A stretch of DNA of 64,000 bases, from contig JAAFIG010000006.1 of assembly GCA_013298595.1 (NCBI GenBank), positions 62,001-126,000 of the forward strand. Direction: 5' to 3'. Shown piece by piece: positions 42,111 to 48,781 of this stretch. The position numbers and the translations under genes are program-made. This DNA is from Deinococcales bacterium. Lineage in GTDB: Bacteria; Deinococcota; Deinococci; Deinococcales; JAAFIG01. How positions within the stretch are numbered: position 1 is the stretch's first letter; the number at the start of each line of letters is the position of its first letter. The notes beneath the pieces are model-generated. The model made no database searches, was not told where the DNA came from, and saw nothing but the letters and a program-made list of their open reading frames with translations.

Positions 42111-42248
42111 ATGAAATCTGAACCAAAATCCATACCTATGACACCAGTAAAAAAACCATTCCAAGGTATGAAACCTTTGGTTTTATCGCCACGTCCACAA
42201 TTTACGGTCAATATTACGGCTGCTATTCGTAAGTTACGTGACCAATGA
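42111..42248 (+). CDS. 45-residue protein upstream of PIN gene, candidate antitoxin
   Basis: A short ORF beginning MKSEPKSIPMTPVKKPFQG and ending in AAIRKLRDQ. It is basic and proline-rich, with no recognised DNA-binding fold. Its TGA overlaps the ATG of the PIN-domain gene (ATGA), and it has its own promoter with perfect -35. By position it could be the antitoxin of a VapBC-like module, although it does not resemble VapB. Confidence 0.6.
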   Translation: MKSEPKSIPMTPVKKPFQGMKPLVLSPRPQFTVNITAAIRKLRDQ

Positions 42249-42763
42249 ATATTTCGCGGCATTACATCATTGACTCGAGTATTGCTTTATATGGTGCATT
42301 GCCAATTGAAATGTTTCCTGATCAAGAACAAAATAAGGTCAGAGCAGCCACCGCGTTTCTCAGTCGCGCTACTTTTCATGGTGCAGAATTACACGTTCCA
42401 GTCAGTTTCTTTTCAGAAATCATGAATTTGGTCTATCAAGAATTTATTCAAACCCAACAATTGAGTCTCGAGGAGGGTCAGTTGTTATTGGACATGATTT
42501 TTTCAACAACATGGGAATTTCACTTTCCTGTTTTCCGCACTGTTTTTGATATTCAGCATCGTTTAGCATCACGCCCAACTGTTACCGATGCCGAGTTTTT
42601 ATCGCTTGCAATGGATTTAGGTTATCCAATACTGACAACCGACCCTGAACTATTGTTAGAAGTCCAAAAAAACATTCCTGAAATAGCAACCCAACTTATC
42701 ACCGAGCATATTTGGGCAAGCAGCGGCGCACTCGAGGAATTTCCACCAACAGATGAAGGATGA
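42245..42763 (+). CDS. PIN-domain ribonuclease, probable VapC-like toxin
   Basis: A 172-residue PIN-like protein. Acidic residues in PIN order are visible: Asp in YIIDSSIALY, Glu in SFFSEIMNLVYQEF, Asp in VTDAEFLSLAMDLGYPILTTDPELL and the final TTDPEL. This is the arrangement of metal-dependent RNases of the VapC group. It is translationally coupled to the 45-residue upstream ORF. Toxin activity is inferred from fold and gene pairing. Confidence 0.8.
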   Translation: MNISRHYIIDSSIALYGALPIEMFPDQEQNKVRAATAFLSRATFHGAELHVPVSFFSEIMNLVYQEFIQTQQLSLEEGQLLLDMIFSTTWEFHFPVFRTVFDIQHRLASRPTVTDAEFLSLAMDLGYPILTTDPELLLEVQKNIPEIATQLITEHIWASSGALEEFPPTDEG

Positions 42764-43728: not shown

Positions 43729-46572
43729 ATGAACGATACGATGTTTAGGAATTTAAGCGTTATTCACACAGGGAGGCACATGCTCATACAACAATTACTC
43801 AAAGAAGCTAAAAACCCCAACACCAGCCCAGAACGCCTTTCTCAGTTAGGACTACTCGAAATAGAAGTAGCTCGAGCAGTGGCAAAGAATATCAATACAC
43901 CTTCTGAAACCCTAAAAACTCTTAGCTCGAGTAAAGATGATACGACCAGAAAATACGTGGCTGGCAATCCAAACACACCACTCGAGGTTTTTAGTAAGTT
44001 AGCAATGCAATTTCCCAAAGAAGTGCTGAATAACCCATTGCTACCAATTTTATTGATGTCCGATGCGAATTTTCTCGAGCAATTCCCAAGTGCCAGTTTG
44101 AAAAACATGCTTAAACGACCCGAGATGCCCGTAGAATTTATTGAATGGGCAGCGCAAAACGCAGATTGGAAAGTTTGTGAAGGAATTTTACAGAATGAAA
44201 AGGCGACTTTGAGTGCTTTGCACAGTCTCGAGCAACGTTTTTCAGATCAGGTAACAAAAATTCAAACACATCTAGCATTTTCAAACTCAATAGTTGCACC
44301 AGTTTGGACAACCCAAGCACTGATAGAGGATGTCTTAGCAAAACGTGCGACTTATTCTCTGCCTGATGGAAGATTACGTCAAATTGGTTGGTTTTCTCGA
44401 GATGAAAACAGCAAAGCTATTTTACCTCTTTTAACCTATGCCAAGTGCGAAATTGCTAGTGATCCAAATACACCAATTGCTACATTACAAACTTTGGCTC
44501 GAGATATGTATGATGATGTACAAATTTGTGTGGCAAGTAACCCTAATACACCAATTGAGGTTTTGCAAGAATTAACTTTAGCAAGTGATACGGTACGGTT
44601 GAGTTTAGCAAAAAATCGTTCAGCACCTATTCAATTGTTACAAGTTCTAGCAAATGATTCCTCACCAGATGTTCGGCGTGCTGTCACGGAAAATCCGATT
44701 TCTCCAATCGAATTGCGAGCAAGTATTCTTGATGGTGTAGGTGTTAAAGACCATATTGAAAACTCGATTAAAACACTAATTGCTTTTGCCTTAAGTCCTT
44801 TTCTGCGTTCCAGATGGGTGGCAGCAGGTAATCCTAAAACACCAAGTGAGATTTTGCATTTATTAGCAACTGATACCAATTCTGATACGCGTAGGCTGGT
44901 TGCGAATAATAATGCTACTGCTCCTGACACACTAAAGCTGTTGGTTGCACCAAGCGAAGATAATCATATTCGGACTTGTGCTGTTACAAATCCGAATATA
45001 CCAATTGAAATTTTGCAACAAATGATTCGTGAACAAAGTTTTGCTTTAGACGTTGCTTACCATTCCGACATTCCAATTAGTATTTTGCAAGTATTAGCAA
45101 CAAATACCGATGCTCGTGTTCGTACAAATGTGGCTAAGAACCCTAGTACCTCAGTAGAAACGCTTTGTTTCATGTATGAAAAAGAATCTGATTTAGGGGT
45201 AATTGGCACTATTGCATTAAATCCAAATACGCCAATCGAAATACTCGAGAAAATCTTTGTCAATCATGTAAATCTTCATCCAGAACTCGCGCAAAATCCA
45301 AGTGCGTCAAGTGAACTGCTTATCAAGTTGGCACAAGGCAAGGGTTTACATATTCGTAATCTGGTCAGCTTGCATCCTGCTACACCAGCTGAAGTTTTAT
45401 TTCATATTGTCAGTAGAACAAATTCTATTGGTCGGGCATATATTGCACAAAATCCAAAGGCACCTATCCAATTGCTGTCTCAATTAGCTGAAGATGAATC
45501 TTATGGTGTTCGAGCAGCAGTGGCACAAAATCCTAACACAACCACCCAATCGCTATCGCAACTTGCAGAAGACGAACACGAAAAAGTACGACAATACGTT
45601 GCTAAAAACATGCTCACTCCAATCTCTACTTTAGAAAAATTAGCAACTGATAGCATCGTAGAAATTCGTCAAGCAGTTGCTAAAAACCCTAGCACTCCAA
45701 CTGCTTTATTAGCTATTTTAGCCCAAGATGCCAAAGTTGAAGTCCGTTGGTATGTTGCAATTCATACCAATACAGCTATTGAAACACTGCAATTACTGGC
45801 TCGAGATAAAGTAGCGATAAGTTCATGGATTGTAAAACACCCCAAAGCTCCTATTGAAGCCCTGATACAAGTTGACAGTTCCACTCGAGTACCACTCGAG
45901 ACATTACAGCAATTAGCTTTGGAGAAAAGCAAGTGGATTCGGGCTGGTGTAGCTAAAAACGTTCACACTCCAATGGCATTATTGCAACAATTGCTAACGG
46001 ATAAAGATGCTGATGTTCGACTCGAGATTGCCCTGAATCGCAATTCACCTTTAGAAATCCTGAGCACACTAGCAAAAGATACGAATTGGGAAATCCGTGT
46101 CGGTGTTGCTGGAAACGAGAATGCCAGTTCAGACTTGCTCATGCTAATGGCATCAGACGAAAATCTAAAAGTTCGACTCGAAGTTGCAAAAAACACGCAA
46201 ACGCCTTTTGTTGCATTGCAAATACTCGCAATAGATAAGGATTCCAAAATTCAAGAAACAGCATTACAAAATTATGCGTTATCTCGAGAACAACGTTCGC
46301 AGTTACTCCACAACGCAAACTTGGATTTTGCAGTCGAACTCGAGAAATTGCTTGGTTCAATCAGTAAATCCGAGGAAGGGTTAGTGGCTTATTTGCATCC
46401 ACAAGCACCAACTCCCATATTGGCGAAAGCAGGACGACATGATGACCCACTGATTCGGGCAGCTGTTGCACTACACCCAAAAACACCAGAGAACACCTTG
46501 AAAGTGCTCTGCCAAGACGGCGATGCTCGAGTTCGCGCCACTGCTCTGGCTCGAATGAAAGACACACCATGA
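43729..46572 (+). CDS. Leucine-rich-repeat-variant (LRV) solenoid protein
   Basis: A 947-residue protein almost wholly built of LRV repeats of about 24 residues, pattern VRxxVAxNPNTPxxxLxxLAxD (for example VAQNPNTTTQSLSQLAEDE, VAKNPSTPTALLAILAQDA). I estimate over thirty copies. The repeats form a right-handed helical solenoid suited to binding proteins or other large ligands. The N-terminus lacks the Cys cluster of the Azotobacter Fe-S LRV protein. It could start at ATG 43729 or at the Met in HMLIQQLL (43780). It overlaps the MoxR gene by 4 bp, so it is probably the recognition subunit of a three-gene system. That role is inferred. Confidence 0.88.
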   Translation: MNDTMFRNLSVIHTGRHMLIQQLLKEAKNPNTSPERLSQLGLLEIEVARAVAKNINTPSETLKTLSSSKDDTTRKYVAGNPNTPLEVFSKLAMQFPKEVLNNPLLPILLMSDANFLEQFPSASLKNMLKRPEMPVEFIEWAAQNADWKVCEGILQNEKATLSALHSLEQRFSDQVTKIQTHLAFSNSIVAPVWTTQALIEDVLAKRATYSLPDGRLRQIGWFSRDENSKAILPLLTYAKCEIASDPNTPIATLQTLARDMYDDVQICVASNPNTPIEVLQELTLASDTVRLSLAKNRSAPIQLLQVLANDSSPDVRRAVTENPISPIELRASILDGVGVKDHIENSIKTLIAFALSPFLRSRWVAAGNPKTPSEILHLLATDTNSDTRRLVANNNATAPDTLKLLVAPSEDNHIRTCAVTNPNIPIEILQQMIREQSFALDVAYHSDIPISILQVLATNTDARVRTNVAKNPSTSVETLCFMYEKESDLGVIGTIALNPNTPIEILEKIFVNHVNLHPELAQNPSASSELLIKLAQGKGLHIRNLVSLHPATPAEVLFHIVSRTNSIGRAYIAQNPKAPIQLLSQLAEDESYGVRAAVAQNPNTTTQSLSQLAEDEHEKVRQYVAKNMLTPISTLEKLATDSIVEIRQAVAKNPSTPTALLAILAQDAKVEVRWYVAIHTNTAIETLQLLARDKVAISSWIVKHPKAPIEALIQVDSSTRVPLETLQQLALEKSKWIRAGVAKNVHTPMALLQQLLTDKDADVRLEIALNRNSPLEILSTLAKDTNWEIRVGVAGNENASSDLLMLMASDENLKVRLEVAKNTQTPFVALQILAIDKDSKIQETALQNYALSREQRSQLLHNANLDFAVELEKLLGSISKSEEGLVAYLHPQAPTPILAKAGRHDDPLIRAAVALHPKTPENTLKVLCQDGDARVRATALARMKDTP

Positions 46573-47567
46573 CCCCATCAGAACTCAAATCCACTTTGGA
46601 TCGTTTTGTGATGGCTTCTTTGCGTCATTCGATTATGATTTGGGGTGCACCTGGCATTGGCAAAAGCAGTATTGTTGCCCAAGTTGCTCAAACTCACAAC
46701 CTCGAGTTTACGGATTTACGCCTCTCACAACTTGCGCCGACTGATTTGCGTGGGTTGCCTGTGCCTGAAAATGGAGTCTCGAGGTGGTTTCCGCCAATTT
46801 TTTTGCCTCGAGCAGGACGTGGAATTCTTTTTTTGGATGAGTTGAACATGGCTCCTCCTGCTTTGCAAGGCGTTGCTCAACAACTGATTTTGGATCGTAA
46901 GGTCGGGGAGTACATCGTGCCTGAAGGCTGGTTTATCTGGGCGGCTGGCAATCGCAAAGAAGACCGTGCCAGTGTTTTTGATATGCCCGCGCCGTTGGCG
47001 AATCGTTTTGTGCATTTTGAAGTTGAACCTGATTTTGATGCGTTTAAGTTCTACGCTTTTGAACGCGGTATCCACGAGCAGATTCTTGGTTTTTTGTCGT
47101 TTCGCCCGACCCTTTTGCATCGCATGGATGATGACCGTCCCGCTTGGGCAAGTCCGCGTTCGTGGGAGATTGCCAGCAGTTTGCACAGCACAGGCTTGGA
47201 GATTGGTTCAGCCGTTGGCGCTCCTGCGGCTGCTGAGTTTTACGCTTTTCTCGAGGTTTACGCGGTACTGCCAAGCATCGAGCCGATTCTAGCGGGCAGC
47301 AGCACCGCCAATTTTCCGACTGAACCGAGCGCTCAGTTTGCGATTACCACCGCCCTTGCGACTCGAGCCAAAACCGCTAAAGAGGCTGTGGCAGCCTTTC
47401 GTTGGGTGGCAAGGGGAGCGCCGAGGGATTGGTTGGCGCTGATGGCGAATGATTTGCGGGTGCAAATGCAATCCAAAGGACAAGTTGGTGCATTCGCACA
47501 ATTGCTGATGCAGGACAAAGAATTACGTGAGGCGACTCAGGCGTTTCAGGCGCTTTTAAACCTATGA
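46569..47567 (+). CDS. MoxR-type AAA+ ATPase
   Basis: A 332-residue ATPase with Walker A GAPGIGKSS, Walker B GILFLDELNMA and sensor 1 WAAGN. The lid region follows. MoxR ATPases usually act as chaperone-like partners of VWA-domain proteins encoded next to them, which is exactly the arrangement here. Both ends overlap neighbouring genes by 4 bp (ATGA), so LRV, MoxR and VWA proteins are probably made in set proportion. Confidence 0.93.
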   Translation: MTPSELKSTLDRFVMASLRHSIMIWGAPGIGKSSIVAQVAQTHNLEFTDLRLSQLAPTDLRGLPVPENGVSRWFPPIFLPRAGRGILFLDELNMAPPALQGVAQQLILDRKVGEYIVPEGWFIWAAGNRKEDRASVFDMPAPLANRFVHFEVEPDFDAFKFYAFERGIHEQILGFLSFRPTLLHRMDDDRPAWASPRSWEIASSLHSTGLEIGSAVGAPAAAEFYAFLEVYAVLPSIEPILAGSSTANFPTEPSAQFAITTALATRAKTAKEAVAAFRWVARGAPRDWLALMANDLRVQMQSKGQVGAFAQLLMQDKELREATQAFQALLNL

Positions 47568-48781
47568 ACCTCGAGCCAGATGATGCTAAACGCCTCAGTG
47601 CGAGTTTGTTTCGCCTGACCAGTGCTGCGCCGTTTTTTGCTGCTTTAGCACGGTACGCTCGGCTTGAGAGCAGTTTGGAAATTCCCACGGCTGCGACAGA
47701 TGGTATCAGTATTTTTTGGAATCCAGATTTTCTGCGTTCACTTTCTAAACTCGAGCGTGATGCTGTTTTGCTGCATGAGGTACTGCATTGTGCTTTGTCG
47801 CACATCACCCGCCGAGGTATGCGCGAAGCTAGACTCTGGAACATTGCTTGCGATATTGTGGTCAATGGCATGATTGCTGCAGAAGGTAAGTTTACCTTGC
47901 CCAAAGGTCATATCCGATTGCCTGATCTCGAGCATTTGGCAGTTGAAGAAGTTTATGCATTATTAGAAAAGCAAATACCGATACTTGAGTTGCCAATGCT
48001 AGATTTGCTCGAGATTGCTCCAAGCGATTGCCAAGGCGATAAGTCTGGTGATAGCAAGGGCGAAAAAGACCGTGATGAACAGGGCAACAATGACTCAGAA
48101 GGCAACCCAGATGGCAAAAGCAAAAAAGCCCCGATGGGTTTGACTCCAGCTCAAAAAACTCGTCTCGAGCAGCATTGGCACGACGCAATGCGTCGTGCCG
48201 AAATGACTTGCCGTAACCAAGGGACAATGCCACTCGGGATGCAGCGTGAATTGGCTCGGCTGGGGCGTTCACAACTGAATTGGCAGGCTTTGCTGGCGAG
48301 GTTCTTGATTCGCACCCCAACGGATTTCTTGGGTTTTGATCGGCGTTTCCTGCACCAAAAATTGTATCTCGAGGCACTTGAAGGCGAAAGTGTCCAGACG
48401 TATGTTTGCATAGACACAAGCGGTTCAATTAGCAATAAAGAAATGAATCTGCTGTTTACCGAAGTCCAAGCTGTACTACGGGCGTACCCGCAAGTCAAAT
48501 GCGAATTATTTTTTGCTGATGCAGATTTATATGGCGGGTTTAAAATTCAAGCTCGAGATAAAATGCCAATGCCTCAAGGTGGTGGTGGTACCGATTTCAG
48601 ACCTTTTTTTACTCAACTCGAGCAGCAGCGTTTGCAGTTGGAAGCGGTTGCCATTTACTTAACCGATGGTTTTGGCTCATTTCCACAAAAAAAGCCGCGT
48701 TTGCCTGTGCTATGGGTGGTAGTACCTGGTGGTCTCGAGTCTAGTGCTTTTCCGTTTGGTACAGTCATTCGGATGGTATAA
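47564..48781 (+). CDS. DUF2201-type putative metallopeptidase with C-terminal VWA-like domain
   Basis: A 405-residue protein. The N-terminal domain has a zinc-peptidase-type HExxH in VLLHEVLHCALSHITR (about residue 71). A charged, low-complexity linker (DKSGDSKGEKDRDEQG) follows. The C-terminal VWA-like domain carries a MIDAS motif DTSGSIS and later a GGGGTDFRP and TDGFG. This is the family usually paired with MoxR ATPases. The ATPase may drive or gate the peptidase or the metal-dependent adhesion domain, with the LRV protein as ligand-binding partner. Confidence 0.9.
   Translation: MNLEPDDAKRLSASLFRLTSAAPFFAALARYARLESSLEIPTAATDGISIFWNPDFLRSLSKLERDAVLLHEVLHCALSHITRRGMREARLWNIACDIVVNGMIAAEGKFTLPKGHIRLPDLEHLAVEEVYALLEKQIPILELPMLDLLEIAPSDCQGDKSGDSKGEKDRDEQGNNDSEGNPDGKSKKAPMGLTPAQKTRLEQHWHDAMRRAEMTCRNQGTMPLGMQRELARLGRSQLNWQALLARFLIRTPTDFLGFDRRFLHQKLYLEALEGESVQTYVCIDTSGSISNKEMNLLFTEVQAVLRAYPQVKCELFFADADLYGGFKIQARDKMPMPQGGGGTDFRPFFTQLEQQRLQLEAVAIYLTDGFGSFPQKKPRLPVLWVVVPGGLESSAFPFGTVIRMV

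Follow-up and report, generated by a model that had tools for sequence, protein, structure and literature searches.

A recurrent gene trio of an LRV solenoid, a MoxR-type ATPase and a DUF2201 protein in Deinococcota

VMAP/MoxR-vWA ternary systems, which were proposed to be conflict systems by Kaur et al. 2020 (PMC7159879), combine a MoxR ATPase and a VWA protein with a third, more variable component (VMAP, iSTAND, FtsH or a beta-propeller), and associations of MoxR-vWA ternary systems with DGRs and with CRISPR loci have been described (PMC10907252, PMC10910872). NorQ/NorD and CbbQ/CbbO consist of an AAA+ ring and a VWA adaptor with an intact MIDAS, and in NorQD the VWA domain plugs the AAA+ ring and the MIDAS binds the client (PMC9976466). 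We have analyzed a stretch of 64,000 nucleotides from a Deinococcales bacterium (hereafter the window) in which an LRV solenoid protein, a MoxR-type ATPase and a DUF2201 protein are encoded side by side. This trio shares with the systems of PMC7159879 the MoxR ATPase, the VWA protein and a more variable third component, but it differs in using an LRV or LRR_5 solenoid for that component and in the N-terminal zincin that its VWA protein bears. Kaur et al. 2020 mention neither DUF2201 nor LRV, and the LRV protein has no VMAP-core match in Pfam, although the library searched may not hold every VMAP model. Like NorQ/NorD and CbbQ/CbbO, the trio joins an AAA+ ATPase to a VWA protein with an intact MIDAS; unlike them, it has no linked client enzyme, a zincin-like N-terminus and a solenoid partner. 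It would have MIDAS-driven remodelling in common with Midasin (Rea1), which differs in being a single giant polypeptide that acts in ribosome assembly. Since the described MoxR-vWA classes that we consulted lack LRV and DUF2201, we take the trio as a variant of that design, which it resembles in layout, a likeness that falls short of proving membership in the described classes. Among the open-access papers that the searches listed, none was found that links DUF2201 with MoxR, or MoxR with LRV, a solenoid or the plasmid pSYSA discussed below.

All three genes lie on the forward strand. The first (43729..46572) encodes the LRV solenoid protein of 947 amino acids (Pfam LRV 6.5e-60, LRV_2 3e-45), the second (46569..47567) a MoxR-type AAA+ ATPase of 332 amino acids (Pfam AAA_5 2.6e-7, above the cut-off) and the third (47564..48781) a DUF2201 protein of 405 amino acids, in which DUF2201_N (6.9e-36) and the VWA-like DUF2201 domain (2.7e-17) both score above the Pfam cut-off. 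The LRV/MoxR and MoxR/DUF2201 junctions, read from the sequence, are both ATGA overlaps. The open reading frames, Pfam matches, motifs and junctions bear out the initial annotation, which had named an LRV protein, a MoxR AAA+ ATPase and a DUF2201 protein with a MIDAS VWA domain. That annotation had also counted thirty-plus repeats in the LRV protein. A repeat-unit HMM marks 26 units or part-units over the 947 amino acids, and the higher number is an upper bound, obtained by dividing the length by 26 and including a non-canonical N-terminal head (residues 77-168; 43957..44232). This head is conserved and family-specific, as judged by alignment and profile, and the C-terminal columns of the alignment are also conserved, forming a cap at about residues 888-947 (46390..46572). 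The LRV profile matches the solved LRV protein of Azotobacter vinelandii (1LRV, 4.4e-15), which has the same type of repeat; 1LRV is a 4Fe-4S protein, whereas the 947-residue window protein has a head of its own and no visible cluster of N-terminal cysteines. The name MoxR is based on AAA_5 and on homologues publicly annotated as MoxR family ATPase. Its Walker A motif (GAPGIGKS, 46644..46667) is invariant in the alignment, as are the wider patterns GxPGxGKSS and LFxDExN, in line with an AAA+ core, and its best solved relative is Midasin (3e-11).

We searched 111 Deinococcota genomes with profiles and defined the VWA clade by E below 1e-150. The clade comprises 18 loci in 17 genomes, and an LRV gene adjoins MoxR or VWA at 17 of these loci. 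The remaining locus (in G068) is split by contig ends, with VWA starting at one and MoxR-LRV stopping at another. Thus, the possibility that the LRV gene is only rarely next to the other two, which the initial annotation had named as the outcome that would speak against it, is not what we observed. At least five gene orders are found (LRV-MoxR-VWA, MoxR-LRV-VWA, MoxR-VWA-LRV, VWA-MoxR-LRV and LRV-VWA-MoxR), so that the linkage is more than inherited synteny. The 92-residue LRV head was detected at E<1e-20 in 16 of the 17 genomes that have a clade VWA but in none of the 94 that lack one (P = 2e-18, Fisher's exact test, with genomes counted as independent regardless of relatedness). The sole exception, G073, has an LRV gene without the head. 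Because this test ignores relatedness, we also mapped the presence of LRV onto the MoxR tree, where the label changes 3 times as compared with 15.2 times in shuffles, none of the 500 shuffles being as low. LRV repeats are not exclusive to the trio, since further LRV genes, shorter than that of the trio, are present in these genomes and on plasmids. Overall, the trio recurs as a unit, its linkage being far above chance. The relatives of the window genome group with lineages of the Thermus/Meiothermus type, and the genus names Meiothermus and Thermus used here for them are inferred from the likeness of genes on one contig (G061:C2) to the Allomeiothermus silvanus plasmid pMESIL01, which carries the same genes.

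The DUF2201 protein has a zincin-like N-terminal domain, a low-confidence linker and a C-terminal VWA domain that ends with the protein itself at residue 405. AlphaFold2 modelled it with a mean pLDDT of 82, and residues 274-405 of the model resemble I/VWA domains (Z about 13, rmsd about 2.5 over 130 residues). Because the comparison with PDB folds reached the VWA half only, the zincin half is assigned from sequence. The MIDAS DxSxS motif (DTSGS, residues 284-288; 48413..48427) is accompanied by T343 and D368, and D284, S286 and S288 are invariant among 139 unique DUF2201 homologues. For the LRV protein alone, the AlphaFold2 model reached a pLDDT of 38 and was discarded. The initial annotation had called a solenoid sensor, an ATPase switch and a peptidase effector a coherent layout, and solenoid, ATPase and metal-site protein do fit together coherently as a machine. 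We consider it somewhat more probable than not that the trio is a three-part, client-remodelling AAA+ machine with a solenoid as its recognition arm. MoxR would assemble into an ATP-driven ring, and the DUF2201 protein would be its VWA adaptor, gripping the client with the MIDAS face. The zincin-fold domain presumably binds a metal and may clip the client or only hold it. The LRV protein may dock through its conserved head and caps, leaving the long, faster-evolving repeat array to select or scaffold the client. By analogy with known MoxR-VWA couples such as NorQD, we infer that the solenoid supplies the MoxR-VWA pair with a client or a scaffold. If the solenoid does select clients, this would account for the specificity of an otherwise generic MoxR-VWA motor. 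The trio offers a testable three-part unit for two protein families without an assigned role, DUF2201 and the large LRV proteins.

The solenoid is of another type in Clostridia. Divergent clostridial MoxR-DUF2201 pairs adjoin a BspA-type LRR_5 protein at all nine loci found, three of them initial (L027-L029) and six (L254-L259) from 117 genomes of the order, although LRR_5 genes may be common there. When Pfam LRR_5 was run on two of these proteins, one scored above the cut-off (6.8e-11) and one below (2.3e-5); the others were recognised by a derived profile. The presence of LRR_5 in place of LRV at 9/9 loci suggests that the recurring third part is an exchangeable leucine-rich solenoid, and that MoxR-vWA machines repeatedly recruit such solenoids, much like the swapped recognition arms of immune receptors. 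The nearest relatives of both the MoxR and the DUF2201 protein are phage pairs, with PHROG 1297 and 1314 matching the two proteins over their full length. Both genes are encoded at 140 of the 160 viral loci examined, and a viral clade is the sister of the LRV clade in the MoxR tree. The trio differs from these pairs in having LRV, which is absent from all 160 viral loci; a viral search with a single LRV protein also gave no match. The phage pairs without LRV, together with the distant, divergent LRV gene on pSYSA, indicate that the pair can work without LRV, which counts against the three-part machine, as does the lack of any neighbour that could be a constant client. One tentative and rather doubtful extension is that the trio belongs to a widespread, undescribed MoxR-vWA ternary class, a surveillance machine whose VWA adaptor carries a zincin and whose leucine-rich solenoid can be exchanged. 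There, the solenoid, of the LRR_5 type in Clostridia and of the LRV type in Deinococcota, cyanobacteria and part of the Pseudomonadota, would recognise a foreign or damaged protein on which the AAA+ ring would act, and phages would carry the pair as well.

As for the cellular purpose of the machine, conflict or surveillance, as opposed to quality control or complex assembly, is a serious possibility but falls short of an even chance. In its specific form, possible though not quite as probable, the trio is an anti-phage ternary system in which LRV senses an invader protein, MoxR is the switch and the role of effector falls either to the zincin of the DUF2201 protein or to a nuclease that is recruited. 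The systems proposed by Kaur et al. 2020 argue for this, as does the patchy distribution outside Deinococcota. A Woeseiaceae MAG (L026) has MoxR-VWA-LRV, and Pseudomonadota carriers are rare, three genomes in each of two evenly drawn, largely overlapping samples (~400 and ~300). The surroundings on two plasmids point the same way. On Synechocystis pSYSA, the MoxR-VWA pair lies 4 kb from a head-bearing, divergent LRV gene, with a GmrSD type IV restriction gene among the genes between them, type I-D cas genes following and toxin-antitoxin genes nearby. On Thermus oshimai pTHEOS01 (L083:11359-16091), a short-LRV form of the trio in the order LRV-MoxR-VWA has a RecQ/DinG-like helicase upstream and, directly after it, genes for an uncharacterised 746-aa protein and a helicase of the UvrD type. 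The sequence of the 746-aa protein possibly resembles an AddB-like nuclease, with no Pfam support for that reading. The downstream gene pair recurs in G025, and its first gene in G073; a similar short-LRV arrangement was seen at L042 and, in part, at L064. The pSYSA LRV gene (L082:19316-21232) contains about ten near-identical 78-bp repeats, and its array length is possibly variable; no such array was found in the window LRV gene.

The genome of the window (4.58 Mb, 68 contigs) holds two divergent copies of the trio, which also argues for a role in conflict. The second copy, on contig C6 (L030:8336-13040) in the order MoxR-LRV-VWA, is orthologous to the copy carried by G001, a genome of the same genus (MoxR 87%, VWA 83%), whereas the window copy compares with it at 55% in MoxR, 51% in VWA and 27% in LRV. 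The MoxR tree places the window copy outside the main Deinococcota group, beside an open fork that also involves the copies from Woeseiaceae and Synechocystis; the LRV proteins of the window and the Woeseiaceae MAG aligned too poorly for use. In a check for an empty site, its two flanking genes were found on separate contigs in G001 with no trio beside either, and this broken synteny leaves insertion of the window copy unproven. Its divergence, its place in the tree and the separation of its flanks in G001 make it look like an accessory copy, likely gained laterally. Just upstream, at 42245-42763, the strand of the trio encodes a small protein with weak similarity to PIN domains; a gene on the opposite strand lies between it and the trio.

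Several observations stand against a conflict role. The window and Meiothermus chromosomal copies sit among ordinary or housekeeping genes, and defence-type neighbours occur only beside the plasmid-borne relatives. PADLOC matched no trio protein to known anti-phage systems, giving only weak AAA+ similarity to IetA, and a toxic effector domain is absent. LRV is 892-908 aa long in most Meiothermus copies, so that its repeat number is stable. Simple Nei-Gojobori counts on Meiothermus pairs gave dN/dS values well below 1 for all three genes, higher in LRV (0.21-0.37) than in VWA (0.16-0.27) and lowest in MoxR (0.04-0.12), as compared with about 0.1-0.18 in three neighbouring genes, mostly below VWA. 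The fastest evolution of LRV within the trio has been counted for a conflict role; it fits a recognition arm but also the ordinary drift of repeat proteins. The earlier suggestion of a conflict system is thus partly supported: the recurrent trio stands, and a defence role is suggested only by the plasmid-borne relatives.

All trio genes are under purifying selection, which would also suit a housekeeping chaperone for enzyme maturation, as NorQD and CbbQO are, that inserts metal into or remodels one enzyme and uses LRV as the client adaptor. This is the established mode of MoxR-VWA pairs (PMC9976466), and several Meiothermus species share one chromosomal neighbourhood for the trio. We nonetheless regard it as somewhat unlikely, since comparison across genera gave no metalloenzyme or other client that stays linked to the trio (beyond the trio genes, no neighbouring gene is kept from genus to genus), and since repeated relocation and plasmid carriage are unlike dedicated maturases.

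Less probable again is an ATP-dependent protease, in which MoxR unfolds the substrates that LRV selects and the DUF2201 zincin cuts them. In its favor, the DUF2201_N profile matches the M48 peptidase 3C37 and MJ1213, although these PDB matches are weak (E about 0.001-0.004), and HExxH and the further ligands are conserved. Across the 139 homologues, the motif H71-E72-x-x-H75 (47774..47788) keeps H75 in all, H71 in 136 and E72 in 129, and the further candidate ligands H80 and D97 (47801..47854) are kept in 138 and 139, respectively. The catalytic Glu, present in the window protein, is replaced in the other 10, and the Woeseiaceae trio member has HVTMH in place of HExxH, so the motif is not intact in every DUF2201 member, although active metallopeptidases would be expected to keep it. 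E72 varies and H75 and D97 never do, which indicates that the metal site is kept more strictly than the catalytic Glu. The initial annotation had proposed the peptidase as effector, which the loss of this Glu beside near-invariant metal ligands makes doubtful. The last alternative, three unrelated genes brought together by chance or lineage synteny, might appeal to the LRV proteins that occur without a MoxR-VWA pair, and it is ruled out by the co-occurrence statistics, the varied gene order and the spread over distant phyla.

PHROG 1314, which matches the whole DUF2201 protein, carries the label 'HNH endonuclease'. This label is probably wrong, because Pfam shows no HNH domain in that protein. 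A public MAG titled Klebsiella pneumoniae (G112, locus L025), very likely mislabelled, holds a MoxR-VWA pair and, on a different contig, two LRV genes with the head. We further noticed a more distant MoxR-DUF2201 pair (L040:10384-13692) beside a Type ISP restriction-modification enzyme.
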